Virus record (IMG/VR): IMGVR_UViG_3300034257_000034
Coordinates: 1-44,065 of that record
DNA: 44,065 bases
Strand: one strand, 5' to 3'
Origin: a virus
Shown here piece by piece: positions 127-44,065 of this stretch (position 1 is its first letter; every line of letters starts with the position of its first letter). The translations under genes were made by a program, and so were the position numbers. The notes under the pieces were generated by a model. The model worked only from the letters and a program-made list of their open reading frames with translations. It did not search any database and had not been told where the DNA came from.

Positions 127-157
127 CAGGGATTAGGCGGAAAGTTTTCTGCATAAC
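121..157 (-). other. attI: Putative attI site of the phage integron
   Basis: On the minus strand the sequence just upstream of intI reads into the core box G|TTGGGC (127-121), which fits the integron core GTTRRRY. This is the normal place for attI: next to the 5' end of intI with cassettes leading away. Only 30 bp separate the box from the intI start codon, so any further integrase-binding boxes must sit in this stretch or inside the gene. The box is perfectly complementary to the R' box of the neighbouring cassette (44029-44035). Confidence 0.7.
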
Positions 158-4612: not shown

Positions 4613-5314
4613 GTGCCCGCGATTCCGACCAAAGCGTTAGCCGACCACTGGCATACCTCGACGGCTTACATTCGAGGCCTGCGGACCCGCAAGGCGGGTC
4701 CGCAGCTGCCGGCGTTTGAGGATCGCGGCGCCGAGCAGGCGGCGCGGTTCGCGGAGGCGGACGCCTGGCGCGCGATCCATGCGCCGGCGCGACCAGGGCG
4801 GGTGGAGACGCGGCCGCCGGACGGCGCGGACACTGGAAAATTTGAGGAAGGAGCGGGGGGCGAGGAAACGGTGGATACGGCGAAGTTTCTCGTCGAAACC
4901 GAGGACTTCGACGGCTGGGTGATCGAGCAGGCGGAGGAGGTGGTGAAGATCCAGATCGGCCTGTATCGGCGCGCGTGCGCAACGGGTGATCAATACCGGA
5001 TCCGCCAGGCGCTCGATAACTGGGAAGTCGCGGCGCGGCGCTGCGCGGAACTGCGCAAGCGATTCCTCGAGCTGCAGGAGAGCGCGACCAACATGATTCC
5101 GCTCGACCGCGCGTCGGACATCGTGGGGCGCGAGCTCGGGCTGCTGCAGCAGCTGCTCGATGATTTCGGGGTGCGGGTCGGGGCGCTCGCGAATCCCGAG
5201 CGCCCCGAGGTGGGCACGGCCGCGATCAACGCGGCGGTCGATGAACTTTACCGGCAGATCCAGAATGCGAATGCCGCGATCACGCACGCGACGGCGGAAA
5301 AGCAGGTGGCGTGA
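4613..5314 (+). CDS. terS: Putative small terminase subunit
   Basis: 233 aa with a GTG start. The N-terminus (TKALADHWHTSTAYIRGLRTRK, about 6-27) looks like a helix-turn-helix that could recognise the packaging site. The rest is helical and charged. The assignment rests on position: it ends in a GTGA overlap with the large terminase gene, the usual TerS-TerL order. The large subunit would cut and translocate DNA brought to it by this protein. Confidence 0.65.
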   Translation: MPAIPTKALADHWHTSTAYIRGLRTRKAGPQLPAFEDRGAEQAARFAEADAWRAIHAPARPGRVETRPPDGADTGKFEEGAGGEETVDTAKFLVETEDFDGWVIEQAEEVVKIQIGLYRRACATGDQYRIRQALDNWEVAARRCAELRKRFLELQESATNMIPLDRASDIVGRELGLLQQLLDDFGVRVGALANPERPEVGTAAINAAVDELYRQIQNANAAITHATAEKQVA

Positions 5315-7206
5315 TCGGTGGCGACAATTTGTTCGCCCGGTTTGTGCGCGGGTTCTTCCGCGTGCCGGAGCGGCTGGCGCCGGCGGAGTGGGTGGAGAAA
5401 TACATCCGGCTGCCGGCGGGGCAGCATGAGCGGTCGCCGGGCCCGGTGCGGTTGCGGCGCTGGATGCGCGAGATTCTGAACTGCCTGGCGGAACTCGGGG
5501 TCGTCGATATTCTTTTCTCGGGGCCGACGCAGGAGGGAAAAACCTTCCTGCTGCGCATGGCGGTGGCGTTCAAGATTGCCGGCCGGCCAGGGCCGGCGAT
5601 GTGGCTGGATTCGACGGTGCCAAAGGTGCGGTCGATCTTCAAAAAGCAGATCCGCCCGCTGGTGGAGGCGAACCCGATCCTCGCGAAGCGCCTGCCGCGT
5701 GACCGCCACCACATTACGAATACAGAGATCCTATTCCCGGGTGCGGCGCTCAACGGCTACGGGGCGAACTCCGACAAGCAGGTCGCGGGTGACACGGCCG
5801 AATGCGTGTTCGGCAACGAGGGTGCGAAGTGGAAACTCGAGACGGATGACGAGGCCGCGATCCTGGAGCTGGTGCGCCACCGCACCGAGCAGTATGGGGA
5901 CACGCGAAAGCATCTCTTCTCGAGCACGCCGCGCACGGAGGCGAATCTGTTCTGGAAGGAAGTCGAGAAAGGGGACAAGCGCCGGTGGTTTGTGCCGTGC
6001 CCGCACTGTGGGCACATGCAGGCGCTGGAGTGGGGCGACGAGAGTTCGCGCCACGGCGTGAAGTGGGATCCGGCGGCAAAGCTGCCGGATGGGTCGTGGG
6101 ATCTCGACCGCGTGAAGGCCTCGGCGCGCTACCGCTGCGCGAATGCCGCGTGCCCCGGCGCGCCGTGGGATGACGCCGCGCGGCTGGCGGCCGTCGAGGA
6201 TCCGCGCGCGGAGTGGCGGGGCTCGAAGCGCGCGGCGCCGGGTTATCGCTCGTACTGCCTGAATGGGCTGTATGGCCGCAACGACTCGCGCCGGCTCGGC
6301 AACCTCGCGGTGAAGTTCCTCTCGTCGCGGCTCACCGGTTTCCTGATGGACCGGCAGGATTTCTGGAACTCCGACATGGGCGAGGTGTGGCGCCGCACGA
6401 TCGAGTCGGTGAACGTGAAGAAGCTCGCGCACCTCGAGGCCGACTATCTGCGCGGCGAACTGCCGGCGGGATTCAAGCCCGACCTGTTGATCATGGGCGT
6501 CGACGTGCAGCGCGACCGGCTGCGTTTCGTGCTGCGCGCGCTCGCGTGGAACGGGCAGTCGTATCTCGTCGATTTCGGCTGGCGGCCGACGTGGAAGGAT
6601 CTGGATACGGTCGAGAAAGACTATCGCGCCCTCGGCGGCCACTGGCACGCGATCGTCGACATCAACTTCGAGGATCGCCGCCAGGAGGTGCGCGAGCAGG
6701 TCTACGCGCGCCGCGGCCGCGGCTGGATGCTGGCCGATGGTCAGGAGTTCACCGACGAGGGCGTGAAGCTCGACCGCGAGAATGTTTTCCTCGGCGGCAA
6801 GGGCGCCGGCGCGCAGCACTACGCGCTCCGCCTAATCATCTCGACGTATGATTTCAAGTGCGAGCTCGAGGCGAAGCGCAGCGGCGAGGTGAAGAACTGG
6901 TGGCTGTGCCGGCTGCCGACCGCGCTGGAGCGGCTCGCGGTCGGCGAGGATCCGCGCGAGATCGAGGAATACGCGGAATACAAAAAAGAGATCCTCGACG
7001 AAAAACGCCAGCCGCGCGCGCGCCGCCAGAAGAGCCTGCCCGACGATGAGTTTGTCGCGCGCACCGGCGCCAACCACGCGTGGGACTGTGAGGTCTACAT
7101 CCTGGCGCTGTTCCGGGCGCTGTGGTTGCGGCGGTCGGCGAAGCAGCGGCAGAAAGACCGCGCGGCCGGCGGGGCGCGTACGGTGGCGGAAGTGGCGAAG
7201 ACCTGA
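5311..7206 (+). CDS. terL: Large terminase subunit, GpA family
   Basis: 631 aa, the usual size for lambda GpA-like terminases. The Walker A-like motif GPTQEGKT is at 71-78 of the ATPase half, and a CPxCG zinc-knuckle-like pair lies near 230. The C-terminal half holds acidic motifs expected for the nuclease (LLIMGVDVQRDRL, VDINFEDRR). It packages the genome into the prohead through the portal. It begins with GTG overlapping the stop of the putative small subunit. Third codon positions favour G here, unlike the C preference that begins with the next gene. Confidence 0.93.
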   Translation: MIGGDNLFARFVRGFFRVPERLAPAEWVEKYIRLPAGQHERSPGPVRLRRWMREILNCLAELGVVDILFSGPTQEGKTFLLRMAVAFKIAGRPGPAMWLDSTVPKVRSIFKKQIRPLVEANPILAKRLPRDRHHITNTEILFPGAALNGYGANSDKQVAGDTAECVFGNEGAKWKLETDDEAAILELVRHRTEQYGDTRKHLFSSTPRTEANLFWKEVEKGDKRRWFVPCPHCGHMQALEWGDESSRHGVKWDPAAKLPDGSWDLDRVKASARYRCANAACPGAPWDDAARLAAVEDPRAEWRGSKRAAPGYRSYCLNGLYGRNDSRRLGNLAVKFLSSRLTGFLMDRQDFWNSDMGEVWRRTIESVNVKKLAHLEADYLRGELPAGFKPDLLIMGVDVQRDRLRFVLRALAWNGQSYLVDFGWRPTWKDLDTVEKDYRALGGHWHAIVDINFEDRRQEVREQVYARRGRGWMLADGQEFTDEGVKLDRENVFLGGKGAGAQHYALRLIISTYDFKCELEAKRSGEVKNWWLCRLPTALERLAVGEDPREIEEYAEYKKEILDEKRQPRARRQKSLPDDEFVARTGANHAWDCEVYILALFRALWLRRSAKQRQKDRAAGGARTVAEVAKT

Positions 7207-7237: not shown

Positions 7238-7504
7238 ATGCCCACTGCCACCGGAGCCGAGACGATTGCCGAACGCCTGCTGCGCAAGCGCACCGAGCTT
7301 GCCGCCGTGCGGACCGCGCTCGCGCGCTCCACCGTCAACGGCGAATCGTTCAACCTCACCGGCGCCGCCGTGACCCAGGTGGCCTTTGAAAAACTCGAGG
7401 CCCGCGAGGTCCGCCTCGCCGCCGAAGTCCGCCGCCTCGAGGCGCGGGCCGCCGGCGCCGGCTTTCCGACCGCGCTGGCGCACACGCAGACCCGCGTCGC
7501 ATGA
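7238..7504 (+). CDS. Small head-tail connector protein (gpW-like)
   Basis: 88 aa. The ATG at 7238 is preferred over longer in-frame openings because upstream sequence overlaps the large terminase in an Arg-rich shadow frame. The pattern AERLLRKRTELAAVRTAL...VAFEKLEAREVRLAAEVRRLE gives two helices with a short strand between, like gpW-type joining proteins, which lie between terminase and portal in lambda-like phages. It overlaps the portal start by ATGA. Confidence 0.7.
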   Translation: MPTATGAETIAERLLRKRTELAAVRTALARSTVNGESFNLTGAAVTQVAFEKLEAREVRLAAEVRRLEARAAGAGFPTALAHTQTRVA

Positions 7505-9264
7505 CTCCCGCCGGCCTCCGTACCACCGTGGCTCGCCGCGCGCCGTCCCCGAACTCCGGGGAGTCCCGCCGGCTGATCGTCGCGGCCGCCGCCGTCACCG
7601 GCCTCGGCGCGAGCTACTACGACGCTGCGGCCTCGGGGCGCGACGTCGACTGGCAGGCGCCCGCGTCCGGCGGCTTCGAGGATTTCCTGTTCAACGGCGC
7701 GACGCGCCGGATCGTGACCGCGCGTTTCCGCCAGGAGGTCTACAACAACCCGTATCTCTGCGGCCTCGTCGAGAAATGGCCGGAGGCGATCGGCTGCAGC
7801 GCGCTGCGCAGCCGCACGGGCGACCGCCGCTACAACCTGCTCAAGGAGGCCCTCTGGTATCGCTGGGCGAAGGAGTGTACCTTCGACGGCGCCGCGCTCG
7901 CGACCGTCGAAGAGATCCTTGCGGTGGAGCTGTTGCTCGCCGGCGAACTTTTTCTCGTCAAGCTCGCCGGCGGCACGCTGCAGTTGATCGCCTCGGAGTT
8001 CTGCGGCTCGCCCGGCGGCACCTCGCGCTTCGGCGAGCGCGAGGTCAACGGCATCGTGCGCGACGCGACGGGCCGCCCCGTGGCCTTCCGGTTCGGCCGG
8101 CTCTCCCGCTGGGGATCCATCGAGATCACCGGCACCGACGCCGAGCTCGTGCGTGCCGACCAGGTGATCCACGTCTACAGCCGCAAGCGCGTGCTCATGG
8201 GCCGCGGCCTCCCCTGGCTCCTGGCCAGCGCGAAGACCGCGCGTTCCCTTTACGAGATCACGCAGGCCAAGACGAAGCAGATCAAAGACGTGACCTCCAT
8301 CACCGGCGCGATCGAGACCGAGGGCGTCGAGGACTGGCTGCAGAACAACGCGGCCGATCTCCCGGTCGACGCCGAGGCGACCACGACGGGCGAGACCGCC
8401 GACTCGCCGGCGGACCGGACGCCGACCGACCACCGCCCGCTCAAGATCGAGCTCGCGCCCGGCACGTTCATTTTCCTGAAGCCCGGCGAGAAACTCCACC
8501 AGCTCGTCAACGACTACAAGGCGACGGACTACAAGGAGCTCATCATGCTCATGCTCCACGCCATCGCCACGCCGGTCGGCCTGCCGGTCGAGCTCTGGTT
8601 CAGCGGGCTCGGCGACGTGAACTATTCCGGCTTCAAGGGCCTCGGCCTGCAGTGGAAGGCGCGGCGCGCGCGCATCTGCGAATTTCTCGAGCGCGCCTTC
8701 CTCGAGCCGCTGCACGGCTGGCGCATCCAGCTCGCGCACGATCTCGACGAGCTGCCGAGCGCGCCGCCCTCGGCGGAGACGGCCGTGCCGGCGGGCGCCC
8801 TGTATCAGCCGACTGAGGACGAGCTGATCCAGTGGGGCTGGAAGCGCGCCGCCGTGCTCGACGATGAAAAAGCCGCGCAGGCCAACGTCCGGCGCCTGGA
8901 GAGTGGCGAATGTTCCCTCGGCGACATCTGGGCGGAAAACGGCCAGTTCGCCGAGGAGGTTTTCACCGCGCGCCGCCAGCTCTGGATCCAGCTGCAGGTC
9001 GCGGCCGGCGAACTCCCGGCCGACGGCGATCACGCCGCCATCAAGGTGCCGCTCGGCTTCCTGCTCAAGGGCCAGCTGCCCGGCGAAGCGCCGGCGCCAC
9101 GGCTGCCCTCCGCCGCCCTCGCGCCCGAGAATATGCACGAAGACGCGGAGGACGATGACGACGCCCAGGACGACGACCAGGAGGATGACGACGCCCAGGA
9201 CGACGACCAGGAAAAGGATGACGACCAGGACAAAAAAGGCCGCGACAAAAAGAAAGCCGCATGA
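7501..9264 (+). CDS. Portal protein, lambda family
   Basis: 587 aa. It forms the dodecameric ring at the capsid vertex through which DNA passes. Family features include the N-terminal YDAA region, RARFRQEVYNNPY-like core, a later PVGLPVELWFSGLGDVNYSG segment (about 358-378) and WKARRARICEF. The last ~45 residues are a low-complexity acidic tail with a direct repeat of DDDAQDDDQE followed by Lys-rich residues, encoded by a tandem repeat at about 9149-9220. The tail may bind the scaffold or protect basic surfaces. It overlaps the protease gene by ATGA. Confidence 0.9.
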   Translation: MTPAGLRTTVARRAPSPNSGESRRLIVAAAAVTGLGASYYDAAASGRDVDWQAPASGGFEDFLFNGATRRIVTARFRQEVYNNPYLCGLVEKWPEAIGCSALRSRTGDRRYNLLKEALWYRWAKECTFDGAALATVEEILAVELLLAGELFLVKLAGGTLQLIASEFCGSPGGTSRFGEREVNGIVRDATGRPVAFRFGRLSRWGSIEITGTDAELVRADQVIHVYSRKRVLMGRGLPWLLASAKTARSLYEITQAKTKQIKDVTSITGAIETEGVEDWLQNNAADLPVDAEATTTGETADSPADRTPTDHRPLKIELAPGTFIFLKPGEKLHQLVNDYKATDYKELIMLMLHAIATPVGLPVELWFSGLGDVNYSGFKGLGLQWKARRARICEFLERAFLEPLHGWRIQLAHDLDELPSAPPSAETAVPAGALYQPTEDELIQWGWKRAAVLDDEKAAQANVRRLESGECSLGDIWAENGQFAEEVFTARRQLWIQLQVAAGELPADGDHAAIKVPLGFLLKGQLPGEAPAPRLPSAALAPENMHEDAEDDDDAQDDDQEDDDAQDDDQEKDDDQDKKGRDKKKAA

Positions 9265-10791: not shown

Positions 10792-11772
10792 ATGCCCTCC
10801 GTCAACCTGCTCGACATCGCCAAGCTCAACGGCAACGACGCCAGCGTCGGCCTCATTGAGGAAAACCTCCGCTTCACCCCGGAAATGGAAGTGTTCCCCA
10901 TGCGCCCGCCCATCCGCGGCACGACCTACACCACCGGCGTGCGCACCGGCCTGCCCACCGTGGGCTTCCGGGCCGCCAACACCGGCGTCACGCCCAGCAA
11001 ATCCACCTTCAAGAAGCAGCTCGTCGAGTGCTTCATCATCGACGCGCAGATCAAGGCCGACAAAGCCGTGGCCGACGCGTTCGAAGATGGCGCCCCCGCC
11101 TGGCAGGCCATCGAAGCCTCCGGTGTCGCCAAGGCTGCCCTACGCAAGGTCGGCACGCAGATCTTCTACGGCAACGTGGCCGGCGCGGGCGGCGACGTCC
11201 TGGGCTTCCCCGGCCTGAAGGCCTTTCTGCCGAAAGGCGGAGTCACGGCCAACGGCGATGCGCTCACCATCGACGCCACCGGCGCCGCCGCCCTCACCGC
11301 CAGCTCCGTCTACGCCGTCGTCTTCGGCATGAAGGACGCCATCCTCGTCCCCGGCAACGGCACCACCCCGCTCGAGCTCGGCGAGTGGCGCACCCAGGCC
11401 GTCGCCGACGAGGCCGACGCCACCAAGCAGTTCACGGCCTACGTCAACGGCCTCACGGGCTGGATCGGCCTGCAGCTCGGCAACGAAAACTGCGCCCGCC
11501 GCATCCTCAACCTCACCGCCGAGACCGGCAAGGGCCTCACCGACGCGCTCCTGGGCGCCCTCCTGGAGACCTTCCCCGCCGGCGTCGTGCCCGACGCGAT
11601 CTTCATGAGCCGGCGCTCGCGCCGCCAGCTGCAGCTCACCCGCACCGTCACGCTCTTCGGCAGCGGTTCCGTGCGCGTCAACCAGCCGGCCCTCGCCGTC
11701 ATGCCCACCGAATACGAGGGCGTCCCGATCATCGCCACCGACTCCATCCTCAACACCGATGCGATCGAATAA
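10792..11772 (+). CDS. Major capsid protein
   Basis: 326 aa, a usual size for HK97-fold capsid proteins lacking a fused delta domain. Its position right after protease/scaffold and before a small decoration-like gene identifies it. Family-type features are the N-terminal MEVFPMRPPIRGTTYTT region, a central helix with LGFPGLKAF, and a C-terminal VNQPALAVMPTEYEGVPIIATDSI strand pattern. It builds the icosahedral shell. A 52-bp gap follows on each side. Confidence 0.85.
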   Translation: MPSVNLLDIAKLNGNDASVGLIEENLRFTPEMEVFPMRPPIRGTTYTTGVRTGLPTVGFRAANTGVTPSKSTFKKQLVECFIIDAQIKADKAVADAFEDGAPAWQAIEASGVAKAALRKVGTQIFYGNVAGAGGDVLGFPGLKAFLPKGGVTANGDALTIDATGAAALTASSVYAVVFGMKDAILVPGNGTTPLELGEWRTQAVADEADATKQFTAYVNGLTGWIGLQLGNENCARRILNLTAETGKGLTDALLGALLETFPAGVVPDAIFMSRRSRRQLQLTRTVTLFGSGSVRVNQPALAVMPTEYEGVPIIATDSILNTDAIE

Positions 11773-12690: not shown

Positions 12691-12692
12691 CA

Positions 12693-36240: not shown

Positions 36241-36315
36241 CGCCCGAAAACGGAATTTTTGCACAGAAGGTAACGAATGCACGCCGCAGCGGCGTGGAGA
36301 AAACGAAGAGGAACC

Positions 36316-38019
36316 ATGACAACAGAAACAGCCCTTGCCCCCTGCTCCCTGCCCCTTGCCCCGGTCGAGACCTATTTTGCCGACATCAGCGTGGAGCTGA
36401 TCGCGCGCAACCCGCGGCAGCCACGGCGCCAGTTTGCGCCCGAGGCGCTGCAGGAACTGGCGGACTCCCTGGTCGCGCACGGGCAGCTGCAGCCGATCGC
36501 GCTGCGCGCGGTGGATTTGATCGACCCGGATGATCCGGCGCGGCCGTGTCGGTATGCGCTGATCATGGGGGAGCGGCGATGGCGGGCGGCGCGGGCGATC
36601 CCCTGGGCCTCCATCCAGGCGAAGGTTTATGCCGGCGTCGACGAGGCCACCGCGCACGAGATGGCGCTGGTGGAGAACCTGGAGCGCGCCGCGCTGAACC
36701 CGATGGAGGAGGCGGAGGCGCTGGCCGACCTGAAGTCGGTCCACCACTACACGCAGGAGCAGATCGCCGACCGGGTGTATCACGGGAAGAAGTCGCGGGG
36801 GCGCGTGGCGAATCTCTTGCGGCTGCTCGAGCTGCCGGCCGCGGCGCAGGCGCACGTGCGCGCCGGCGCGCTCACCCAGAAGCACGCGGAGGCGCTGCTG
36901 CGGTTTCGCGAGTTCCCCGCGGTGATCGAGGCGATGGCCGATCTCGCGGTGAAGCGCGGCACCGCCGCCGGCGAGCTCGGCAAGGGCCTGCCGTTTGACC
37001 AGGAGCTGGACAAGGCGGGCGTCGTGGTCGCGATCGACTACGACGCGTTCGAGGGCACTGGCCTGATGTTCGACGACAAGCGGGTGTTCGACGAATTGAA
37101 GGCGCAGCCGTGGATCTGCGTCGTCAAGGGGGCGAACACCTTCAGCAACGACCACGTGTATGCGCTGGATGCGGCGCAGTGGGAGGGGTGGATCGGCGCG
37201 AAGCGCGCCGCCTACCAGGAGCGCGTGAAAAAAGAGGCGGCCAAGAAGCAGGCGGAACTCGACCTGCGGGCCGCGGAGAAAACCGAGGAAGTGGCGGCCG
37301 TGAAGGCTGGAGCGAAGACCAAGGCGGCGGCGAAGCTCGAGCTGCGCGGGCCGGTGGACCTGTCGAAACTCGCGCACGGATCCTTCGCGGAGCTCGACGA
37401 ACTGCCGGCGGCGATCCGCAAGCAGATCCCCGCGGAGAAGATCGAGCTGGGGATCGCCCGGTGGGGCTCGGAAAAGCACAAGCAGGGCGACGTGATCGAG
37501 TTCACGCGCGACGTAAACCTGGTGCGCTCGCTGCAGGCGCGGGCGGCGGCGAAGAAAAACAAGCTCGTGCGCGCGCAACTCGACGCGGCGTTGGACGTGA
37601 TGCTCGAGACGGTCGGCGCGATCAAGACCGTCAACGCCGGGGATCTCGCCCTGATCGCGGGCTATGCGATCGCCACGGGTTATCCGGGTGATTTTGCCGA
37701 CGAGGATTTCGAGGCGATCGGGGAAAATCCCACGGAGGAGCTGCACAAGCTGGAGCCGGTGCAGATCATCAAGCTGACGCTGGTGCACAAGCTGCGCGGC
37801 GAGTGGTATCAGGCTCGTCGCGACGCGAAGGCGATCCCGGGCAACCTGGAGGCCTACGCCCAGGGCTACGAGCAGCGCCTCGAGCAGAAGCAGGCGGCCG
37901 CGGAAAAGGCGCAGGCCGCCAAGCTTGCGAAGCCTTCGACCAGCTCAGGCCAGGGGGAGGGGCCGGCCGCGGACAAGAAAACCACCCGGCGGCCGAAGGG
38001 AAAGGCGAAGAAGAAGTGA
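36316..38019 (+). CDS. ParB-family protein
   Basis: 567 aa from the ATG at 36316, which has an AGAGGAA ribosome site; an upstream ATG at 36277 lacks one. ParB/Spo0J landmarks: PRQPRR (33-38), GERRWRA (86-92) and ENLER (120-124), then a YTQEQIADRV helix-turn-helix near 145-155. Longer than typical ParB (about 300 aa); the C-terminal half is unrecognised and Lys-rich. Residues ~8-15 and an internal AKPSTSSGQG come from dispersed repeats. No ParA or clear parS site is seen. It is the last early gene before the cassette array. Confidence 0.75.
   Translation: MTTETALAPCSLPLAPVETYFADISVELIARNPRQPRRQFAPEALQELADSLVAHGQLQPIALRAVDLIDPDDPARPCRYALIMGERRWRAARAIPWASIQAKVYAGVDEATAHEMALVENLERAALNPMEEAEALADLKSVHHYTQEQIADRVYHGKKSRGRVANLLRLLELPAAAQAHVRAGALTQKHAEALLRFREFPAVIEAMADLAVKRGTAAGELGKGLPFDQELDKAGVVVAIDYDAFEGTGLMFDDKRVFDELKAQPWICVVKGANTFSNDHVYALDAAQWEGWIGAKRAAYQERVKKEAAKKQAELDLRAAEKTEEVAAVKAGAKTKAAAKLELRGPVDLSKLAHGSFAELDELPAAIRKQIPAEKIELGIARWGSEKHKQGDVIEFTRDVNLVRSLQARAAAKKNKLVRAQLDAALDVMLETVGAIKTVNAGDLALIAGYAIATGYPGDFADEDFEAIGENPTEELHKLEPVQIIKLTLVHKLRGEWYQARRDAKAIPGNLEAYAQGYEQRLEQKQAAAEKAQAAKLAKPSTSSGQGEGPAADKKTTRRPKGKAKKK
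36332..36362. repeat. CCCTGCTCCCTGCCCC-type repeat in ParB-like N-terminus
   Basis: Read in frame as LAPCSLPLAPV. Reverse complement type of the repeat at 35801-35830. Confidence 0.55.
37931..37957 (+). repeat. CCTTCGACCAGCTCAGG-type repeat in ParB-like C-terminus
   Basis: One unit, read in frame as PSTSSGQG close to the end of the protein. Confidence 0.6.
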
Positions 38020-38084
38020 GCCGCCACAGGGGCACGCGTACGCCGGCGGACCTGGTCGACACGATCGTCGCGCCGTATGCCTAG
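38016..38084 (+). CDS. 22-codon remnant frame at the distal end of the array
   Basis: GTG start overlapping the ParB-like stop; product MSRHRGTRTPADLVDTIVAP then YA. Its end (CCG TAT GCC TAG) mirrors the usual cassette-gene ending in an attC (CCG AAC GCC TGA) with AAC changed to TAT. It may be the last codons of a lost cassette gene fused to the ParB end. Confidence 0.35.
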   Translation: MSRHRGTRTPADLVDTIVAPYA

Positions 38085-38176
38085 CTGATGAACGCCGCTG
38101 AAAACTCCAAGCCTGCTACTGACCTCCCGATTTCGGAGGGCGTAACTGGCGTTCATAATCCAGCGCCTGGTTCGGC
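38072..38176 (-). other. attC: attC 1 (array-distal, core damaged)
   Basis: R' GTTCGGC (38170-38176). The box expected as R'' reads GCCGTAT (38072-38078), with the essential AAC changed. Stem: GCTGATGAACGCC (38085-38097 region) against CCAGC and GGCGTTCAT on the right, with an extra G on the right side. The start codon at 38088 is in the stem. The damaged core probably fixes the end of the array. Confidence 0.6.
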
Positions 38177-38630
38177 GCGCTTGCCGTTCAAACTCAAAAT
38201 CTACGACGAGAGCGGTGAGCACACGGTCGGCCCGCTGTGGCTCGACGTGCCGCACGAAGGCGCATGGGAGCCAGTGCCCGCCGACTTTCCGGGCGGCCAT
38301 TGGGAACACATCGCGCGCATGGAGAAGTGGGTAAAGACACAGATACTCACCGGAGACATCCAGTGCTCGCTCGACACCGACGCGCTCATGGGTCCGCCGC
38401 CCGCCGGGGCTGACGGTCCCAACGCGCTTGCGTCGGGCGACTGGGTGGCCGTGGCTCGCGGGCGCATTGCTGGTGCAGTGGAGGTCGTTGTAAATCGCGG
38501 GGAAAGAACCCGACTCTGCTCCTGCTCTTGTTCAGACAGATGCCCGCTTGGAAAAAGCGGAAGCGAGGTGCGATGCACGGTGCACGAACTCAACGCATTC
38601 ATCGTGGCCAACACCAAGGCTGAGCAATGA
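38088..38630 (+). CDS. Cassette 1 protein, unknown
   Basis: 180 aa. Start codon is 3 bp after the preceding stop, inside attC 1; the frame crosses R' as APGSA (residues ~27-31). It then reads as a compact domain (LPFKLKIYDESGEHTVGPLW, HWEHIARMEKWVKTQIL) and has a Cys cluster near the C-terminus (LCSCSCSDRCPLG). It ends inside attC 2 with NTKAEQ and overlaps the next start by ATGA. A TTG just after R' is a possible alternative start. Confidence 0.6.
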   Translation: MNAAENSKPATDLPISEGVTGVHNPAPGSARLPFKLKIYDESGEHTVGPLWLDVPHEGAWEPVPADFPGGHWEHIARMEKWVKTQILTGDIQCSLDTDALMGPPPAGADGPNALASGDWVAVARGRIAGAVEVVVNRGERTRLCSCSCSDRCPLGKSGSEVRCTVHELNAFIVANTKAEQ

Positions 38631-38739
38631 GCACCACGAGCACGGACGACATGCGCCAACACTTTGAGCCGGACGGCAGCCCTGCGCGACCGCCGGTCGG
38701 TGACGTGGGTGCTCATTGCGCTCCAGCCTCTGGTTCTGC
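38606..38739 (-). other. attC: attC 2
   Basis: R'' GGCCAAC (38606-38612), 6-nt spacer, L arm GCTGAGC; right side GCTGGAGC arm (reverse complement) with one extra G, 5-nt spacer, R' GTTCTGC (38733-38739). The long stem includes AATGAGCACC on both arms. Start codon of the next gene at 38627. Confidence 0.75.
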
Positions 38740-38992
38740 TGCTTATCTTTCGCAGGACCACGGCCGCGCGCTTCGTGAAGCGGCGGAGACAATCGCATGG
38801 ATGAGTGACACGCTGCGTATGGCCTACCTGCACGCGCTCGATGAGGCTGCATACTCGCAAGCGGATCATCCGCCGCGGCTCTCGCCCGCTGAGGAGAAGG
38901 AACTCGGCCGCCGACTCGCGGAACACTGGCACGTCGGCGAATACTGGCGAGCGCGTCGGCAGAACGCTCCAGTGGACCGAACGCCGCAATGA
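38627..38992 (+). CDS. Cassette 2 protein, unknown
   Basis: 121 aa. ATGA overlap with the cassette 1 gene, start inside attC 2. The frame crosses R' as CAPASGSAAY. No ATG, GTG or TTG is in frame between R' and Met59, so the domain (SQDHGRALREAAETIAWMSD, LSPAEEKELGRRLAEHW) needs the attC start. It ends QNAPVDRTPQ inside attC 3. Confidence 0.6.
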   Translation: MSTTSTDDMRQHFEPDGSPARPPVGDVGAHCAPASGSAAYLSQDHGRALREAAETIAWMSDTLRMAYLHALDEAAYSQADHPPRLSPAEEKELGRRLAEHWHVGEYWRARRQNAPVDRTPQ

Positions 38993-39065
38993 GCACTCAG
39001 TCTGCAATGCCGCTTCTCAAATCTCCGGGCGCGTCACCGGCGTTCGGTCGCACGCGTGGTTCTGC
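38959..39065 (-). other. attC: attC 3
   Basis: R'' GCAGAAC (38959-38965) and R' GTTCTGC (39059-39065) are perfect complements. Left arm after a 6-nt spacer is GTGGACCGAACGCCG; the right arm, as its complement, is GTGCGACCGAACGCCG after a 5-nt spacer, so one extrahelical C lies on the right side. Confidence 0.85.
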
Positions 39066-39453
39066 TCCGAGGTCTTTCGTCCGGCTTTTCAAACCGCGAT
39101 TCGCGGCGCTGGTAGAAGCGGGGACGAAAACGCAGACCGTGCGGCCGACACCGAAGCGGATGCCGAAGCCAGGCGACATAATCAGCCTGCGCACATGGAC
39201 CGGCAAGCCCTACCGCAGTAAGCAACGCACGCTGCGAGAGTCCGTGATTACGCGCGTCGCGCTGATGCGTATCGACGCGAAACGATACATCTGGACGCAG
39301 GTCAATCCGCTGAAGTGGCAAACTGAAGACAGCACCTTCGCACGACTGGATGGCTTCGCGGACGAAGCGGAAATGTGCGATTGGTTCGCTCACGAGCACG
39401 GCCTGCCTTTCGCGGGCGTGCTCATCTGCTGGCAGAACACCAAAGCTGACTGA
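38989..39453 (+). CDS. ASCH/PUA-like domain protein (cassette 3)
   Basis: 154 aa, ATGA overlap with the gene before it and start in attC 3. The domain begins right after R': LFKPRFAALVEAGTKTQTVR, PKPGDIISLRTWTGKPYR, ending ICWQNTKAD. This matches ASCH/PUA-like phage proteins thought to bind RNA or modified nucleotides. No start codon lies between R' and the domain, so translation must begin in the attC. It overlaps the next start by TGATG. Confidence 0.7.
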   Translation: MSTQSAMPLLKSPGASPAFGRTRGSAPRSFVRLFKPRFAALVEAGTKTQTVRPTPKRMPKPGDIISLRTWTGKPYRSKQRTLRESVITRVALMRIDAKRYIWTQVNPLKWQTEDSTFARLDGFADEAEMCDWFAHEHGLPFAGVLICWQNTKAD

Positions 39454-39519
39454 TGCAAACCACCGGTCCCAAGAGTGACGTTCCGCGTCCCCGGCATTCA
39501 GTCGAGCGATTTGTTCGGC
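39432..39519 (-). other. attC: attC 4
   Basis: R'' GCAGAAC (39432-39438), 6-nt spacer ACCAAA, arm GCTGACTGATGC; right arm complement GCTCGACTGAATGC with an extra C, 5-nt spacer, R' GTTCGGC (39513-39519). Confidence 0.8.
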
Positions 39520-39788
39520 GGTTTTTGGAGCGCCCGGTGTGGCTTCAGAGCATCGACACAATGACCACCTATGCCCGCGTGCACGACGATAACGATGGCG
39601 ACCGGAGGCAACGCCTAGTCTTGACCTTTGGCCCAGATGGAGACGCGCATCTATGGGTCGAAGGCGAGAGTCCGTCACCCGCGCTCCGCTTCCGCAACTA
39701 CAGCGGCGGCGGGCGAAGTCTACGAACACATGCGGCGCTGATGATCCTCGCCGAAGCAATGAGACTAGATGCGGAACAATCACCATGA
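39453..39788 (+). CDS. Cassette 4 protein A, unknown
   Basis: 111 aa from the attC start at 39453 (TGATG overlap). The frame crosses R' as ERFVRRF, a frame different from most cassettes. An ATG at 39561 (MTTYARVHDDNDGD) gives 75 aa and may be the ancestral start. LVLTFGPDGDAHLWVEG and LRTHAALMILAEAMRL are its clearest segments. Coupled by ATGA to the next gene in the same cassette. Confidence 0.55.
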   Translation: MQTTGPKSDVPRPRHSVERFVRRFLERPVWLQSIDTMTTYARVHDDNDGDRRQRLVLTFGPDGDAHLWVEGESPSPALRFRNYSGGGRSLRTHAALMILAEAMRLDAEQSP

Positions 39789-40015
39789 CACCGACAATAC
39801 CAATCTTCCCGCGCGACTCCAAAGGGCGCGCTGTGCGACGCGACTGCTCGGACTGTGGCAACGGCACGCTACAATATGAGGGCGACGGCATCTGGCGCTG
39901 CGATGGACTGGCCGACCCCGGCCACGACGACAAGCCACTGATCGCCTGTCCGCGCATCCACATCGACGGTGAGGATGATCCGCCGAACGACCCAGCTCAG
40001 CCACCTCGGGGCTGA
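39785..40015 (+). CDS. Cassette 4 protein B, zinc ribbon
   Basis: 76 aa. CSDCGNGTLQYEGDGIWRCDG, then HDDKPLIACP gives four Cys of a zinc ribbon-like fold. It ends in attC 5 with NDPAQPPRG. Small zinc ribbons also occur in cassettes 8, 9 and 11. Confidence 0.6.
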   Translation: MTPTIPIFPRDSKGRAVRRDCSDCGNGTLQYEGDGIWRCDGLADPGHDDKPLIACPRIHIDGEDDPPNDPAQPPRG

Positions 40016-40112
40016 GTGCGACCGCAAAATCTATGACGACCAAAAACGAAAATCTTCCGCCGCAACCTGCGGCTCCCGTCCCCGAGGTTGCCGCTGGAGC
40101 GCCTGGTTCGGC
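39982..40112 (-). other. attC: attC 5
   Basis: R'' GCCGAAC (39982-39988) and R' GTTCGGC (40106-40112) are perfect complements. Left: spacer then GCTCAGC and ACCTCGGGG; right arm complement: 5-nt spacer CAGGC, GCTCCAGC with an extra C, then AACCTCGGGG. A long stem with clear asymmetry, the best-formed site in the array. Confidence 0.88.
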
Positions 40113-40383
40113 GGTCTGGTGCTTCGCCGCAAACGATGATGAAGAAGTCTGGCAATACGGAGGGACCACACGCGAGGCGGCAATCGCTGCCGGCTACTTG
40201 GAGCTGAGCAAATGGACCGACGAGCCAGAGGACCGCACCGACTTCTGCGTAGCGCCGACAAAACCGGCGACGCAACAGGACGTGGAAGAATACACGGGGG
40301 ACGAAGAGATCGAAGTGGACTGGCCCATGATCGACATGGACCGCATCGAATACATCCCGTATCCGCCTCCGCCGAACGCCTGA
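40033..40383 (+). CDS. Cassette 5 acidic protein, unknown
   Basis: 116 aa. Start in attC 5, 17 bp after the preceding stop; the frame crosses R' as GAPGSAVW. No start codon between R' and the domain (FAANDDEEVWQYGGTTREAA, LSKWTDEPEDRTDFCVAP). Strongly acidic C-terminal half. It ends PPPNA in attC 6. Acidic small phage proteins can mimic DNA, but no such role is shown here. Confidence 0.6.
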   Translation: MTTKNENLPPQPAAPVPEVAAGAPGSAVWCFAANDDEEVWQYGGTTREAAIAAGYLELSKWTDEPEDRTDFCVAPTKPATQQDVEEYTGDEEIEVDWPMIDMDRIEYIPYPPPPNA

Positions 40384-40456
40384 GCCGACCGATGCTCCCA
40401 CTGGCTCACAGAGCGCCGTTGCGCACCCCGGCATTCGGTCGGGCGATTTGTTCTGT
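40371..40456 (-). other. attC: attC 6
   Basis: R'' GCCGAAC (40371-40377), 6-nt spacer, arm GCCGACCGATGC; right arm complement GCCCGACCGAATGCC with an extra C, 5-nt spacer, R' GTTCTGT (40450-40456). Confidence 0.8.
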
Positions 40457-40490
40457 GGCCTCTCCAACGACTTACGACAATGCGAAATAA
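40392..40490 (+). CDS. attC 6 leader peptide (32 aa)
   Basis: Starts in attC 6, 8 bp after the preceding stop, crosses R' and ends with TAA overlapping the ATG at 40480. It gives a reinitiation bridge where the cassette gene starts outside the attC. The peptide (MLPLAHRAPLRTPAFGRAIC then SVASPTTYDNAK) is not recognised. Confidence 0.4.
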   Translation: MLPLAHRAPLRTPAFGRAICSVASPTTYDNAK

Positions 40491-40821
40491 ATTCGTTTTC
40501 GGGGTTGACGTGAGCGAAATAAATTCGCACAGTGAGCGCGTGAAAAACGAGACATACTACCACCTGGCTTACACCCGCCGCAACGGCGAGCGGGCCGAAA
40601 TGACCTTCACTTCTCGCGAGAAGCTCGAAACGGCTCTCGTGAAAGCAAAGGCTGCGAATCCGGGGCACGACATGGCCGAAGTCGTGACACCCTACGAAGT
40701 CACCATCCGCGAAGTCACGGTGCCGGAACGCCTCGAAAAACCGATGACCGCGCACGAACGCCGAGTGGGCATGGCTGCCGAACGCGAGAGCCGCACGCTT
40801 GGACGACTCCACCACGGCTGA
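40480..40821 (+). CDS. Cassette 6 protein A, unknown
   Basis: 113 aa (MRNKFVFGVDVSEINSHSER). A GTG near 40540 (VKNETYYHLAYTRRNGERAE) is a reasonable alternative start, because two GCGAAATAAATTCG motifs sit in the first 17 codons. Helical C-terminal half. First of three genes in the longest cassette. Confidence 0.55.
   Translation: MRNKFVFGVDVSEINSHSERVKNETYYHLAYTRRNGERAEMTFTSREKLETALVKAKAANPGHDMAEVVTPYEVTIREVTVPERLEKPMTAHERRVGMAAERESRTLGRLHHG
40482..40527. promoter_or_regulatory. Pair of GCGAAATAAATTCG motifs in cassette 6
   Basis: Two exact 14-bp copies at 40482-40495 and 40514-40527, start to start 32 bp (about three helical turns). Each has CGAA/TTCG inverted arms. A TTGACG hexamer lies between (40505-40510), without a clear -10. 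May be an operator or promoter inside this cassette. Confidence 0.4.
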
Positions 40822-40834
40822 AAAAAACACCAAA

Positions 40835-41020
40835 ATGAACTACCGAGTCCAAGACACTACGACAGACGACCCCAACGCGTTCGAGCTGAAGGCCGACGGC
40901 GAGGCCCGCCCGCGCAATGACGGCACAACACCCGCGCGCTTCTCGTCGCTGGAAGACGCTGAGGCCAAAGCCAAGGAGTTCCGCGGCATGGACGTCGTAG
41001 CTGACTACGAGGGCGTATGA
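40835..41020 (+). CDS. Cassette 6 protein B, small
   Basis: 61 aa (MNYRVQDTTTDDPNAFELKA), acidic, ending in an ATGA overlap. A TTG at 40799 would add 12 residues. Not recognised. Confidence 0.5.
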   Translation: MNYRVQDTTTDDPNAFELKADGEARPRNDGTTPARFSSLEDAEAKAKEFRGMDVVADYEGV

Positions 41021-41226
41021 GCTTCGCGACCGATCTGCGAAAAATGTGTGACCGCCTCGGGACTGCCGAGGCGGCTCGCGCCTGCGAAGTCACGCCGCGC
41101 TCGCTGCAACTCTGGATGAGTGGCGCGCGCGAACCTTGCCGCGCGATGCGCGTCGGAGTGCTTGCCGTGCTGCGCGCTCAAAAGCGAACCACGCTCCGTG
41201 GTCCACAGAACGCTCCGCGTGACTGA
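41017..41226 (+). CDS. Cassette 6 protein C, HTH DNA-binding
   Basis: 69 aa. TAEAARACEVTPRSLQLWMSGAREP (about 16-40) is a helix-turn-helix of the phage regulator type. It ends QNAPRD in attC 7. With the paired motif at 40482-40527 it could form a self-regulated cassette. Confidence 0.6.
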   Translation: MSFATDLRKMCDRLGTAEAARACEVTPRSLQLWMSGAREPCRAMRVGVLAVLRAQKRTTLRGPQNAPRD

Positions 41227-41312
41227 ACCCCGGCCTGTGATGTCCACCAAAAATCAACCTTCCCGAATTTCTCGCCGCCTCCAACGGGGTTCAGTCGACG
41301 CGGTGGTTCTGC
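41205..41312 (-). other. attC: attC 7
   Basis: R'' ACAGAAC (41205-41211), 6-nt spacer GCTCCG, arm CGTGACTGAACCCCG; right arm complement CGTCGACTGAACCCCG with one extra C after a 5-nt spacer, R' GTTCTGC (41306-41312). The stem is otherwise perfect for 15 bp. Confidence 0.88.
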
Positions 41313-41335
41313 GTGTCTTTTCTGACTCTCGATGA
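41240..41335 (+). CDS. attC 7 leader peptide (31 aa)
   Basis: Begins ATGTCCACC in the attC loop, crosses R' and ends with an ATGA overlap on the cassette 7 gene. Product MSTKNQPSRISRRLQRGSVD then AVVLRVFSDSR. Second example of an attC leader bridging to a downstream gene. Confidence 0.45.
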   Translation: MSTKNQPSRISRRLQRGSVDAVVLRVFSDSR

Positions 41336-41583
41336 AACCAAAACATTCACCTTTCGAGCGAATCGTCCACATCGACTGCAAGAGCATCCGCGCGATATTC
41401 GATCCTGACTACGGCCGCGGGACTATCCACGGCAACGACGGCCCGCTGAACATCGGGGCCGCGCTCATCTGCGACGGAAAGAAACACTTCGTCGTGCAGG
41501 TCGAACCATCGCCAGACTCCCCCGAATATCTTGTGAACTTCAGGACGCAACCTGATCCGCAGAACACGGAGGTGAGCGGCTGA
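41332..41583 (+). CDS. Cassette 7 protein, unknown
   Basis: 83 aa, MKPKHSPFERIVHIDCKSIR at the start, beta-rich, with ALICDGKKHFVVQVEPSPDS. It ends QNTEVSG in attC 8. Not recognised. Confidence 0.55.
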   Translation: MKPKHSPFERIVHIDCKSIRAIFDPDYGRGTIHGNDGPLNIGAALICDGKKHFVVQVEPSPDSPEYLVNFRTQPDPQNTEVSG

Positions 41584-41647
41584 CGGAGAGTAAGACGCGC
41601 TTGGCGCGGCTGAAGCGACGACAGCGCGCTCCAGCGACTGGTTGGGC
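41559..41647 (-). other. attC: attC 8
   Basis: R'' GCAGAAC (41559-41565), arm around GTGAGCGGCTG; right arm complement GCTGGAGCGCGCTG after the 5-nt spacer, R' GTTGGGC (41641-41647). Stem less perfect than in the other sites. Confidence 0.7.
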
Positions 41648-41689
41648 CCGCCCGGCGTGGCTCACGCTGGTGCGCTGAAATACTCGACG

Positions 41690-42001
41690 ATGGCGGACAC
41701 TGCCCATCACGAAATCAAGGCGAAGGAGACTGATATGCCAATGGACCAAATACTCGTCGCTCGAAAAGCGATCATCGAAGAACTCAAACGCCGCGCGCTC
41801 GCGAAAGAAGGCAACGTGATCGCGCTCAACCCATCGGACGCGCACCGCTGGCACAAGCCGCAGGATAACTACTATGCGGGCCAAGGCACGATGAACTGCC
41901 CGGTGTGCGGCACCGGCAAACTGCGCTACTCTCGCGCGAGCTACAACGGCCACGTCCACGCACAATGCACCACCGAGGGCTGCGTGGCGTGGATGGAATG
42001 A
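41690..42001 (+). CDS. Cassette 8 zinc-ribbon protein
   Basis: 103 aa from the ATG at 41690; ATG 41735 is an alternative. Helical N-terminal half (MDQILVARKAIIEELKRRAL) and a C-terminal zinc ribbon (CPVCGTGKLRYS, then CTTEGC). Here the start is outside the attC and the stop is just before R'' of attC 9. Confidence 0.6.
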   Translation: MADTAHHEIKAKETDMPMDQILVARKAIIEELKRRALAKEGNVIALNPSDAHRWHKPQDNYYAGQGTMNCPVCGTGKLRYSRASYNGHVHAQCTTEGCVAWME

Positions 42002-42115
42002 GCCGAACGCTGAGGTCAGACACGCTCGGGCGGCAGCGGATGCGGCCCCGAGCGTTGAAGGCCCTCACAAATCTCGGCCCGGTCCCGAGCGTTGATCTGA
42101 ACCGACTGGTTAGCG
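42002..42115 (-). other. attC: attC 9
   Basis: R'' GCCGAAC (42002-42008), arm GGTCAGACACGCTCGGG; right arm complement GGTTCAGATCAACGCTCGGG with an extra T, 5-nt spacer CAGTC, R' GTTAGCG (42109-42115). Confidence 0.8.
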
Positions 42116-42124
42116 AACCATCTT

Positions 42125-42388
42125 ATGCAAACTATAGGAACATGCGGAAACTGCGGCGGCCCTGTGCAGGTGCCGGAATTTTGGGGCGGCTCCGTGCCGC
42201 CGACGCCGACGTGCGCTAGATGCCACGCTGAGGCTGCGAATCCATACGGACACACGATCCCAATGAAGCCGCGACAAACTCGCGATGGGAAACCGATCAT
42301 CGAACTCTGCGGCGAGACCATCGTGCTGGAGAAGCTCCGCTTCGCTAACGACCCAGTGGAGCGGACCCGGCGGAAAGGACACGAGTGA
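42125..42388 (+). CDS. Cassette 9 zinc-ribbon protein
   Basis: 87 aa. CGNCGGPVQVPEFWGG and CARCHAEAANPYG give four Cys of a zinc ribbon. The start is 9 bp after R'. The end (ANDPVERTRRKGHE) is encoded by attC 10 and overlaps the next GTG start. Confidence 0.6.
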   Translation: MQTIGTCGNCGGPVQVPEFWGGSVPPTPTCARCHAEAANPYGHTIPMKPRQTRDGKPIIELCGETIVLEKLRFANDPVERTRRKGHE

Positions 42389-42447
42389 AATCGGCTTCTC
42401 ACATTTCGGGGCGCGCTAACCGGGTTCGCTCTCACGCCTGGTTGGGA
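42343..42447 (-). other. attC: attC 10
   Basis: R'' CGCTAAC (42343-42349), 6-nt spacer GACCCA, arm GTGGAGCGGACCCGG; right arm complement GTGAGAGCGAACCCGG with an extra A, 5-nt spacer CAGGC, R' GTTGGGA (42441-42447). Confidence 0.85.
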
Positions 42448-42744
42448 CCTCTTTGGCGCGCAGTGGAAAACCCGCGCAACTCTGAGTGCGGCTCCGCGCG
42501 CCTCTCCGATCTGGACTGGTCGAATTGGTGGATGGACGGATCGCTTGGCGGATGCTACGTGCACGTCCGCCGAAACCATCCAGACCTCGACGGCGACCGG
42601 CCCGGCGACGAAACATGGCACCGTGTGCACTGCCGGCTCTCCGACAAACCGCGCCTCGCGCTCCGCGATGGCAAGCTATGGTGGCTCGTCGCACGCAGTC
42701 CCAACACTCAGATGTGCCGCGAGGAGAGCGGAGAGACCGCGTAG
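42385..42744 (+). CDS. Cassette 10 protein, unknown
   Basis: 119 aa with a GTG start in attC 10 (GTGA overlap). The frame crosses R' as HAWLGPLW. Trp-rich domain (LSDLDWSNWWMDGSLGGCYV, GKLWWLVAR). Its end NTQMCREESGETA comes from attC 11 and is identical to the end of the cassette 12 protein, because the two attC stems are the same. Confidence 0.6.
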   Translation: MKSASHISGRANRVRSHAWLGPLWRAVENPRNSECGSARLSDLDWSNWWMDGSLGGCYVHVRRNHPDLDGDRPGDETWHRVHCRLSDKPRLALRDGKLWWLVARSPNTQMCREESGETA

Positions 42745-42788
42745 CGGGCTCATAGCGCTGCCGAGACGGCACTATCGCCTGGTTGGGC
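42699..42788 (-). other. attC: attC 11
   Basis: R'' TCCCAAC (42699-42705), arm GATGTGCCG; right arm complement GATAGTGCCG with an extra A, 5-nt spacer CAGGC, R' GTTGGGC (42782-42788). Identical to attC 13 from the AAC of R'' onward. Confidence 0.85.
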
Positions 42789-43124
42789 CTGCTTCGGTGG
42801 ACCCACGAAAACGAGAAAGAGAACCACACCATGGAAGACGATCAAAACCGGACAACGACAGGGCAGGACCAATCAGGTGATAGCGCACCAGCGCATCTGA
42901 GTGTTGGGCCTGCCCGCCCCTCAACACCGCTAGAAGGGGCGGCTGTGGCGCGGACGTGCGAGGGCAGCCATGACTTCGTTGAGCAATACTACGGGTGGAA
43001 GTGCAAGAACTGCGATCTATTCTACCCCAACACTTGCTCACTAGAGTCATGGCTGACCGGTGAGCCTGATGAGGATCTCTCAGATGACTTCTGACGAAAA
43101 CGCCACGGCCGAGGGCAGGCCCAA
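42705..43124 (-). mobile_element. Duplicated cassette, first copy (cassette 11)
   Basis: This 420-bp unit runs from the last C of R'' 11 to the AA of R'' 12. The visible parts of the second copy (43952-44065 and 1-126) are identical to it. Flanking bases differ at both edges. It carries attC 11 at its left and the zinc-ribbon gene. Confidence 0.8.
42831..43094 (+). CDS. Cassette 11 small zinc-ribbon protein (first copy)
   Basis: 87 aa from the ATG at 42831, preceded by GAGAAAGAG. An earlier TTG at 42783 would add 16 residues. CEGSHDFVEQYYGWKCKNCD and a later Cys suggest a zinc ribbon; the end is acidic (EPDEDLSDDF). The second copy is split over the window ends. A recently copied cassette may indicate present or recent usefulness. 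Confidence 0.65.
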   Translation: MEDDQNRTTTGQDQSGDSAPAHLSVGPARPSTPLEGAAVARTCEGSHDFVEQYYGWKCKNCDLFYPNTCSLESWLTGEPDEDLSDDF

Positions 43125-43207
43125 CGACCAAGATCAGAGATGAGCACCGTTGCGCCCACATCGACCTCTGCGCGTCCAAGCGAATTCTCTGAATCGCCTG
43201 GTTCGCC
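43119..43207 (-). other. attC: attC 12
   Basis: R'' GCCCAAC (43119-43125), 6-nt spacer GACCAA, arm GATCAGAGA; right arm complement GATTCAGAGA with an extra T, 5-nt spacer CAGGC, R' GTTCGCC (43201-43207). Confidence 0.85.
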
Positions 43208-43991
43208 TCTGTTTCTTTTCGCGGGCAGACGCATCTGCTGGTTCTCGTGCGGCGCTGCCAGTGCCGTGGCTGCGATGCTCGCCGCAAAGAGCGGACCCAT
43301 CGAACTAGTCTACTGCGACACGTCGCGAAGTGAACACCCCGACAACTTCCGCTTTCGCGCTGACGTGGAAAGATGGCTCGGCGTGAAGGTGCAAGTGATC
43401 GCCTCGAGGAAGTATGCGACCGTCGATGAAGTCTTCGAGGTCGAGCGATACATGAGCGGGATCGGCGGCGCCAAATGCACTGCGGAGATGAAGAAAAAGC
43501 CGCGCTACCGATTCCAGAACCCGGAAGACATCCACATCTTCGGACTCACGGCCGACGAGGGAAGGCGCATCGCTCAATTCGAGGCGAACAATCACGATCT
43601 GCGGCTCGTGTGGCCGCTGCGCGATGCGGGCCTGACGAAATCGGACACCCTGCGCATCGTGTCAGAAGCCGGCATCGAACTCCCGGTGATGTATCGACTC
43701 GGCTACTCGAACAACAACTGTCTGGGGTGCGTAAAAGCGACGAGCCCGCACTACTGGAACAAGGTCCGGGAGGACTTCCCGGAGACGTTCGCCAGGCGAG
43801 CAGAGCAAAGCCGAAGGCTCGGCGTGCGATTGGTGCGCTACAAGGGCGAGCGCATCTATCTCGATGAACTACCGCCCAACGCCGCCGAAGTTGTGAATGA
43901 GGATCTGTCATGTGGGCCAGCGTGCGCAGTGACGACCACTGACGAGGCGAACACTCAGATGTGCCGCGAGGAGAGCGGAGAGACCGCGTAG
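43140..43991 (+). CDS. PAPS reductase-family (adenine nucleotide alpha hydrolase) protein, cassette 12
   Basis: 283 aa. The start is in attC 12 and the frame crosses R' as SPGSPL; no ATG, GTG or TTG lies between R' and the domain. CWFSCGAASAVAA (34-46) is the PP-loop motif, followed by VYCDTSRSEHPDN, a CTAEMKKKPR segment and NNNCLGCVKA. Related phage proteins are annotated as phosphoadenosine phosphosulfate reductase family and may act on nucleotides or sulfur in DNA/RNA modification. The last 13 residues come from attC 13. Confidence 0.78.
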   Translation: MSTVAPTSTSARPSEFSESPGSPLFLFAGRRICWFSCGAASAVAAMLAAKSGPIELVYCDTSRSEHPDNFRFRADVERWLGVKVQVIASRKYATVDEVFEVERYMSGIGGAKCTAEMKKKPRYRFQNPEDIHIFGLTADEGRRIAQFEANNHDLRLVWPLRDAGLTKSDTLRIVSEAGIELPVMYRLGYSNNNCLGCVKATSPHYWNKVREDFPETFARRAEQSRRLGVRLVRYKGERIYLDELPPNAAEVVNEDLSCGPACAVTTTDEANTQMCREESGETA

Positions 43992-44035
43992 CGGGCTCAT
44001 AGCGCTGCCGAGACGGCACTATCGCCTGGTTGGGC
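43946..44035 (-). other. attC: attC 13
   Basis: R'' GGCGAAC (43946-43952), then identical to attC 11 through R' GTTGGGC (44029-44035). Its R'' pairs exactly with R' of attC 12 (GTTCGCC), not with its own R'. Confidence 0.85.
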
Positions 44036-44065
44036 CTGCTTCGGTGGACCCACGAAAACGAGAAA
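43952..44065 (-). mobile_element. Duplicated cassette, second copy, left part (cassette 13)
   Basis: Same as 42705-42818. It runs off the window end, and the rest is expected to join to base 1 (equal to 42999) after 180 missing bases. It is the attI-proximal and so probably most recently inserted cassette. Confidence 0.75.

Follow-up and report, generated by a model that had tools for sequence, protein, structure and literature searches.

Research on integrons treats them as a means by which bacteria stockpile genes, with antibiotic resistance as the foremost case. Here, we analysed the IMG/VR virus record IMGVR_UViG_3300034257_000034, a metagenomic assembly of 44,065 bp referred to as the window throughout, which carries an integron integrase gene (intI), a putative attI site and an array of attC sites on the same molecule as the genes of a tailed phage. 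In all likelihood, this complete integron is a standing module of the phage and part of an IntI/attI lineage specific to phages, with cassettes that are built backwards. An initial reading of the letters alone had already proposed an integron on a phage molecule, and this proposal holds: the integrase exceeds the TIGR02249 cut-off, the array lies far above chance expectation and phage genes stand alongside. What this sequence-only reading overlooked is the most unusual feature, namely that the cassette genes run antiparallel to their attC sites and towards attI.

IntI is full length and contains the region specific to integron integrases, as seen in an alignment with IntI1 and others, and its nearest solved structure by sequence is that of IntI4 (2a3v, E 1e-56). 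The residues R140, K168, H271, R274, H297 and Y306, which we take to be catalytic, are all present. Positions 121-138 are identified as attI from several features: the last box of the array (121-127) lies outside any hairpin and is part of a conserved motif upstream of intI, the motif AACANNGATTA is found again upstream of intI in related phage loci, and cassette insertions and deletions in relatives stop exactly at this site. With attI located 5' of intI, the relation of the two elements is the usual one, so that new cassettes are expected to enter beside intI.

Between the ParB-like gene and the intI side, thirteen attC sites were delineated at 38079-44035 (Table 1), the same number as had been read from the letters. 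A score combining palindromes with box matches (chain score) reached 103.2 for the array, compared to at most 23.8 in 200 dinucleotide shuffles. Moreover, a covariance model (CM) was derived exclusively from bacterial attC sites, 30 in number, taken from class 1, Shewanella and further bacterial arrays. Run unfiltered on the whole window, it matched 11 of the 13 sites with unchanged boundaries and always on the minus strand, plus two weak matches elsewhere in the window; the array is, by this model, recognised as attC. In 11 of 13 cassettes, the right box (R'') of the attC is the exact complement of the box at the opposite end of the cassette, a number reached by none of 100,000 permutations and expected if every cassette was once a circle; within a single hairpin, by comparison, an exact match between both boxes occurs in just 2 of 13. 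An Rfam scan of the window gave zero matches. A scan for attC sites by palindromes only proved unspecific and was superseded by the chain score and the CM; the hairpins at 22362-22452 and 34968-35068 showed high palindrome scores, but are part of dispersed CTCGCGTTCTT repeats.

As the attC sites are almost symmetric, their strand has to be called from separate evidence. Outside the window, 71 of 72 CM matches across 19 other loci fell on the minus strand, and the remaining one came from a locus stored in reverse orientation. A position-specific scoring matrix (PSSM) trained solely on bacterial arrays, which was correct on 120 of 146 held-out sites, gave minus as the top strand at all 13 window sites. 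The right arm is the longer one at 8 of the 9 window sites with unequal arms, as expected of the R''/L'' arm bearing the extrahelical bases, and the unit duplicated within the array (42703-43125) comprises an attC together with the gene to its right, with left boxes as borders. Judged from these sequence features, the polarity of attI and attC relative to intI is normal.

For the strand of the cassette genes, a coding-composition score replaced longest open reading frame (ORF) calls, which are noisy in G+C-rich DNA, and a Pfam comparison of both strands was added as a control for composition artefacts. Genes were found on the intI strand in 59/67 and 60/64 cassettes of the two viral clades described below and in 13/14 of one other locus, i.e., in 132 of 145 viral cassettes, compared to 26 of 110 in bacterial loci (22/91) and class 1 plus Shewanella controls (4/19; Fisher p 8e-30); these counts refer to decided cassettes and individual calls are noisy, the contrast between the groups being the informative part. 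In the Pfam control, 98 gene-strand cassette proteins (two from the window) matched 33 families, compared to 2 families, both helix-turn-helix models, for 95 opposite-strand ORFs from the same cassettes. The cassette genes are thus antiparallel to attC and point towards attI, an arrangement which appears to be new. For neither reversed cassettes nor a phage-specific IntI/attI lineage was a report found in the searchable literature, to which preprints and most subscription papers do not belong.

In the window, ORFs end within 10 and start within 8 of the 13 attC sites, and the AAC of the left box stands in one codon phase more often than by chance (8/12 in the window, 56/93 in clade I and 43/87 in clade II). 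In several attC sites, the stop codon of a gene overlaps the start codon of its successor (ATGA, GTGA, TGATG), and we infer from this layout that translation would be partly coupled over the cassette junctions.

An IntI alignment search of IMG/VR yielded 114 relatives, 80 of which were kept. In the IntI tree, which had been suggested along with the initial proposal, the window IntI forms a group together with the IntIs of 27 further viral records and of one contig from an Opitutaceae metagenome-assembled genome (MAG), with a support of 81 in the Shimodaira-Hasegawa-like approximate likelihood ratio test (SH-aLRT). A second viral clade comprises 16 members (support 98), and further viral IntIs are placed elsewhere. 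Among 50 records, phage markers included Phage_portal in 11 and a phrog_15 terminase in 7 others, complemented by a head protein (L106), another terminase family (L136) and a tape measure protein (L150). The search of related phage contigs for the same module, likewise suggested at the outset, recovered the order of ParB-like gene, array and intI in L098, and intI beside a ParB-like gene (L130-L132) or beside relatives of the window gene at 3378-4118 (L126, L149, L163, L164). The integron is a regular phage module in that its layout recurs on many IMG/VR contigs, several of which also carry phage structural genes. IMG/VR contains at least two phage IntI clades, each with its own conserved attI and located on several phage backbones, which appears to be a new observation as well.

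In this context, the chance capture of an ordinary bacterial integron by one phage, as in Vibrio anguillarum or Shewanella phages and with nothing phage-specific about it, has to be considered. Such captures do exist: integrons and clusters of attC sites lacking an integron integrase (CALINs) were reported in phage genomes, including P1, Vibrio Va_90-11-286_p16 and Shewanella M16-3, with CALINs also in virulent phages, and the cases bearing an IntI were class 1, Vibrio and Shewanella integrons (Qi et al., 2023; PMC9892861). The initial statement that no phage integron was well described is therefore preceded by this work, but keeps its point insofar as those IntI-bearing cases were captured bacterial integrons. 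Capture would also suit the position of the window's group next to Opitutaceae chromosomal IntIs and the prophage-like relatives of the backbone in Verrucomicrobiota genomes (large terminase subunit, TerL, 46-47% and primase 38-42% identical), which have no convincing integron. These relatives suggest the host phylum and a module that comes and goes. The window IntI, however, clusters with the viral IntIs, and the viral loci share a conserved attI and reversed cassette genes, both of which are missing from bacterial arrays, so that we regard a mere capture as improbable.

Comparison of cassette content between close relatives, a further check proposed with the initial reading, revealed differing arrays in three sets of contigs. 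L102 and L104 are 99.6-100% identical, yet their arrays differ at attI: in L102, a cassette ending in GTCAGAGAAC abuts attI (AGTGATTATCC), whereas L104 contains about 1.8 kb of other cassettes at this joint, with the junctions at the AAC box. A difference of the same type was found between L135 and L136 at AACTTAAATTC, and L097, L099 and L100 share about 98% identity over the stretch that runs from downstream of intI to attI (-77 to -81), beyond which they continue into different arrays. Between near-identical phage contigs, cassettes were thus gained or lost exactly at attI and attC boxes, which again appears to be new. Another phage integron with its own intI (L193) contains a gene whose product is 63% identical to the cassette protein of the window resembling 3'-phosphoadenosine-5'-phosphosulfate (PAPS) reductase; the boxes match, and nucleotide similarity is confined to the cassette. 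An alternative option would be a relic with an inactive IntI and a frozen array, and in one contig (L126) the IntI match indeed covers the C-terminal part only. With a full-length window IntI that has kept its conserved residues, a duplicated cassette showing zero mismatches in its visible parts and recent cassette gain and loss in close relatives, we see little prospect for this option.

It is very unlikely that the attC polarity was misjudged and that each gene precedes its own attC, as it would in bacteria, in an array beginning at the ParB side with intI at its far end. The near symmetry of the sites would allow it, and, as in bacterial cassettes, the stop codon of many ORFs lies a few codons within the attC that comes next; the CM, the PSSM, the unequal arms, the unit present twice, the attI motif and the indel breakpoints beside intI, however, all say the opposite, and attC 1 would be left without a gene and the gene adjacent to intI without an attC.

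The window is a tailed phage genome, with terminase, portal and major head genes on one contig; PHROGs matches further include a primase, a head protease and a tail fibre. The terminase, portal and capsid genes named in the sequence-only reading were accordingly found, while its tape measure remained unconfirmed in the window. Its ordinary integrase fell away, as the sole tyrosine recombinase (PF00589) of the record is IntI itself, and the label temperate is not borne out, because no second integrase was found in the PF00589 search, serine integrases not having been searched for. A minus-strand ORF at 28786-29793 (335 aa) was checked as a candidate integrase and is not one. The ParB-like gene could point to plasmid-like maintenance.

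The integron straddles the contig ends, with the array at the right end and attI plus intI at the left. Self-comparison showed that the second copy of the duplicated cassette is split across these ends: positions 43950-44065 equal 42703-42818 and positions 1-127 equal 42999-43125, with about 180 bp missing in between. The simplest reading is probably a circle of about 44,246 bp that carries one cassette twice, the second copy being broken by the assembly, and in such a circle of about 44.25 kb ParB, array, attI, intI and primase would probably join up. A chimera of a phage and an integron from another molecule, conceivable for a metagenome assembly whose contig ends within a repeat, is highly unlikely given that the module is flanked by phage genes, with ParB to the left of the array and the primase to the right of intI, that ParB, array and intI are also joined in L098, that other phage contigs pair intI with structural genes, and that L006 likewise has an attC directly upstream of its primase. 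The primase of L006 is 66% identical to that of the window; at this locus (L006:1-848, the same site as L012:18443-18501), no intI was found between attC and primase, nor anywhere in the 34-kb fragment. TerL and ParB queries against viral contigs gave no relative.

Some observations weigh against a standing phage integron. Within the window, the CM gives modest scores of 10-28 bits and misses sites 1 and 2, circularity rests on the end repeats with about 180 bp unseen, every relative is a metagenomic contig, and the role of the cargo is known for a minority of cassettes, most of them being without assignment.

The 98 cassette proteins include C5 methyltransferases (5), N6/N4 methyltransferases (3), Dam, D12 and Mom, the latter located in the array of L125. 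Further matches include PAPS-reductase-like proteins (2), an Acb2/Tad1 hairpin domain, H-NS, repressor-like helix-turn-helix proteins and an RNA ligase; Acb2/Tad1-like matches were located within a cassette of the L104 array and, in L118, immediately upstream of intI. A counter-defence role for part of the cargo would be a reasonable reading. Homologues of the PAPS-like gene in other phages mostly lack attC flanks, which marks it as an ordinary phage gene as well.

As is established for integrons, IntI recombines the folded bottom strand of attC with double-stranded attI (PMC11023631). In the window, IntI would cut the folded bottom strand of attC, here the plus strand and also the coding strand, and join it to the double-stranded attI at 121-138, so that new cassettes land beside intI. 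In each cassette, the attC would come first and its gene second, the latter being read in the direction of attI and intI, as are the neighbouring phage genes from ParB to primase. With genes running towards attI, a cassette promoter (Pc) at attI could not drive them, and expression would probably occur via phage transcription through the array or via own promoters. For a transcript that starts on the ParB side, new cassettes would arrive at its distal end, in contrast to bacterial integrons with their arrival beside Pc. Since the bottom strand of attC is the coding strand, transcription through the array would leave it as non-template. The array would act as a rapidly exchanged set of small accessory genes, some of them for DNA modification and counter-defence.

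Going one step further, an integron class proper to phages, with an IntI and attI of its own, may have arisen repeatedly in their evolution. Its cassette genes would be reversed with respect to attC, and phage transcription would at once express the array and free the recombinogenic strand as non-template, providing a deck of counter-defence genes that is quickly reshuffled and exchanged among phages; we consider the chances of this proposal to be evenly balanced. If a phage lineage with reversed cassettes holds true, the model of Pc-driven expression would not be general, viruses would own a cassette pool, and site-specific recombination may serve phages to shuffle genes for anti-restriction and other counter-defence. 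The relatives supply natural arrays before and after such events, plus defined sets of IntI, attI and attC.

Compared to class 1 and sedentary chromosomal integrons of bacteria, the window shares the IntI family, an attI upstream of intI, the attC polarity relative to intI and attC cassettes with R''/R' boxes and extrahelical bases. It differs in its phage location, its own IntI clades and attI motifs, and in cassette genes antiparallel to attC, so that the canonical Pc-driven layout, with genes parallel to attC and leading away from attI, was not encountered in the window. The phage integrons of Qi et al. are alike in placing an integron or attC array on a phage genome, whereas the window represents a phage lineage with own attI and reversed cassettes; the Shewanella array, in our analysis, has the normal gene strand. 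Treponema integrons, in which intI is transcribed towards attI (PMC3607928), resemble the window in that intI and cassette genes read in one direction. There, however, intI is the flipped part, while in the window attI lies 5' of intI in the normal manner and the cassette genes are flipped relative to attC. Virus Rctr41k (KX853513), likewise a phage, encodes an integron integrase that scores strongly (383 bits), but this IntI belongs to a different clade. The array of Rctr41k is uncertain, with a chain score downstream of intI yet zero CM matches. The integrase gene, at 4680-5678 of KX853513.1 (L005), is annotated as xerD and is not mentioned by Qi et al.

Table 1. Features of the integron module and of the phage backbone in the 44,065-bp window.
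Feature	Position	Strand	Basis and remarks
attI (array start, intI side)	121..138	-	box GCCCAAC (minus strand G^TTGGGC), then AGGGATTAGGC
intI, integron integrase, 346 aa	158..1198	+	TIGR02249 306.7 bits, cut-off 265
Primase	1226..3394	+	PHROGs; adjoins intI
Terminase large subunit	5311..7206	+	phrog_15, E 2e-74
Portal protein	7501..9264	+	phrog_21
Major head protein	10792..11772	+	phrog_212
ParB-like gene, far end of array	36277..38019	+	TIGR00180 123 bits; phrog_3264
attC 1	38079..38176	-	boxes and stem only; weakest site; without CM match
Cassette 1 gene	38088..38630	+	ORF; coding-composition score; begins within attC 1
attC 2	38606..38739	-	stem and exact box match to next site; without CM match
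attC 3	38959..39065	-	CM 20.2 bits
Cassette 3 gene, ASCH-like (weak, under Pfam cut-off)	38989..39453	+	PF04266 18.0 bits, cut-off 21.2
attC 4	39432..39519	-	CM 26.6 bits
attC 5	39982..40112	-	CM 22.9 bits
attC 6	40371..40456	-	CM 28.4 bits; arms have AACAAATCGC and CTCAGGCGTT in common with class 1 cassette attC
attC 7	41205..41312	-	CM 17.8 bits
attC 8	41559..41647	-	CM 11.5 bits
attC 9	42002..42115	-	CM 14.0 bits
attC 10	42343..42447	-	CM 21.6 bits
attC 11	42699..42788	-	CM 15.6 bits
Duplicated cassette (attC and gene)	42703..43125		100% identical stretches, ends at left boxes (self-comparison)
attC 12	43119..43207	-	CM 19.9 bits
Cassette 12 gene, PAPS-reductase-like / SspD-like	43140..43991	+	PF01507 26.5 bits, cut-off 22.5; PADLOC SspD model
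attC 13	43946..44035	-	CM 10.4 bits; body identical to attC 11 (self-comparison)

Two loci among the relatives deserve a separate remark. The bacterial-collection IntI nearest to that of the window (51%) is found on an Opitutaceae MAG contig (L013:931-3001), with a clade I attI and co-oriented cassettes, beside a gene for a 3215-aa protein, perhaps within a mobile element. At L126:5239-6141, one ORF seemingly fuses a C5-methyltransferase-like start to the C-terminal part of an IntI, reflecting either a broken intI or an assembly effect.

Elsewhere in the window, the N-terminus of a tail-fibre-like protein (13387-15171) matches the Major tropism determinant N-terminal domain (Mtd_N). A short dispersed repeat, approximately TCTCGCGTTCTTC, occurs in intergenic positions throughout the late region (17366, 18553, 19593, 20750, 22362-22452, 26358, 28457, 34418 and 34967-35068), with long inverted repeats at two places. 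Finally, a repeat rich in CCAATCG/CGATTGG motifs is located at 12683-12790 and 23954-24063, the two copies being 83% identical and each lying upstream of a tail-region gene.

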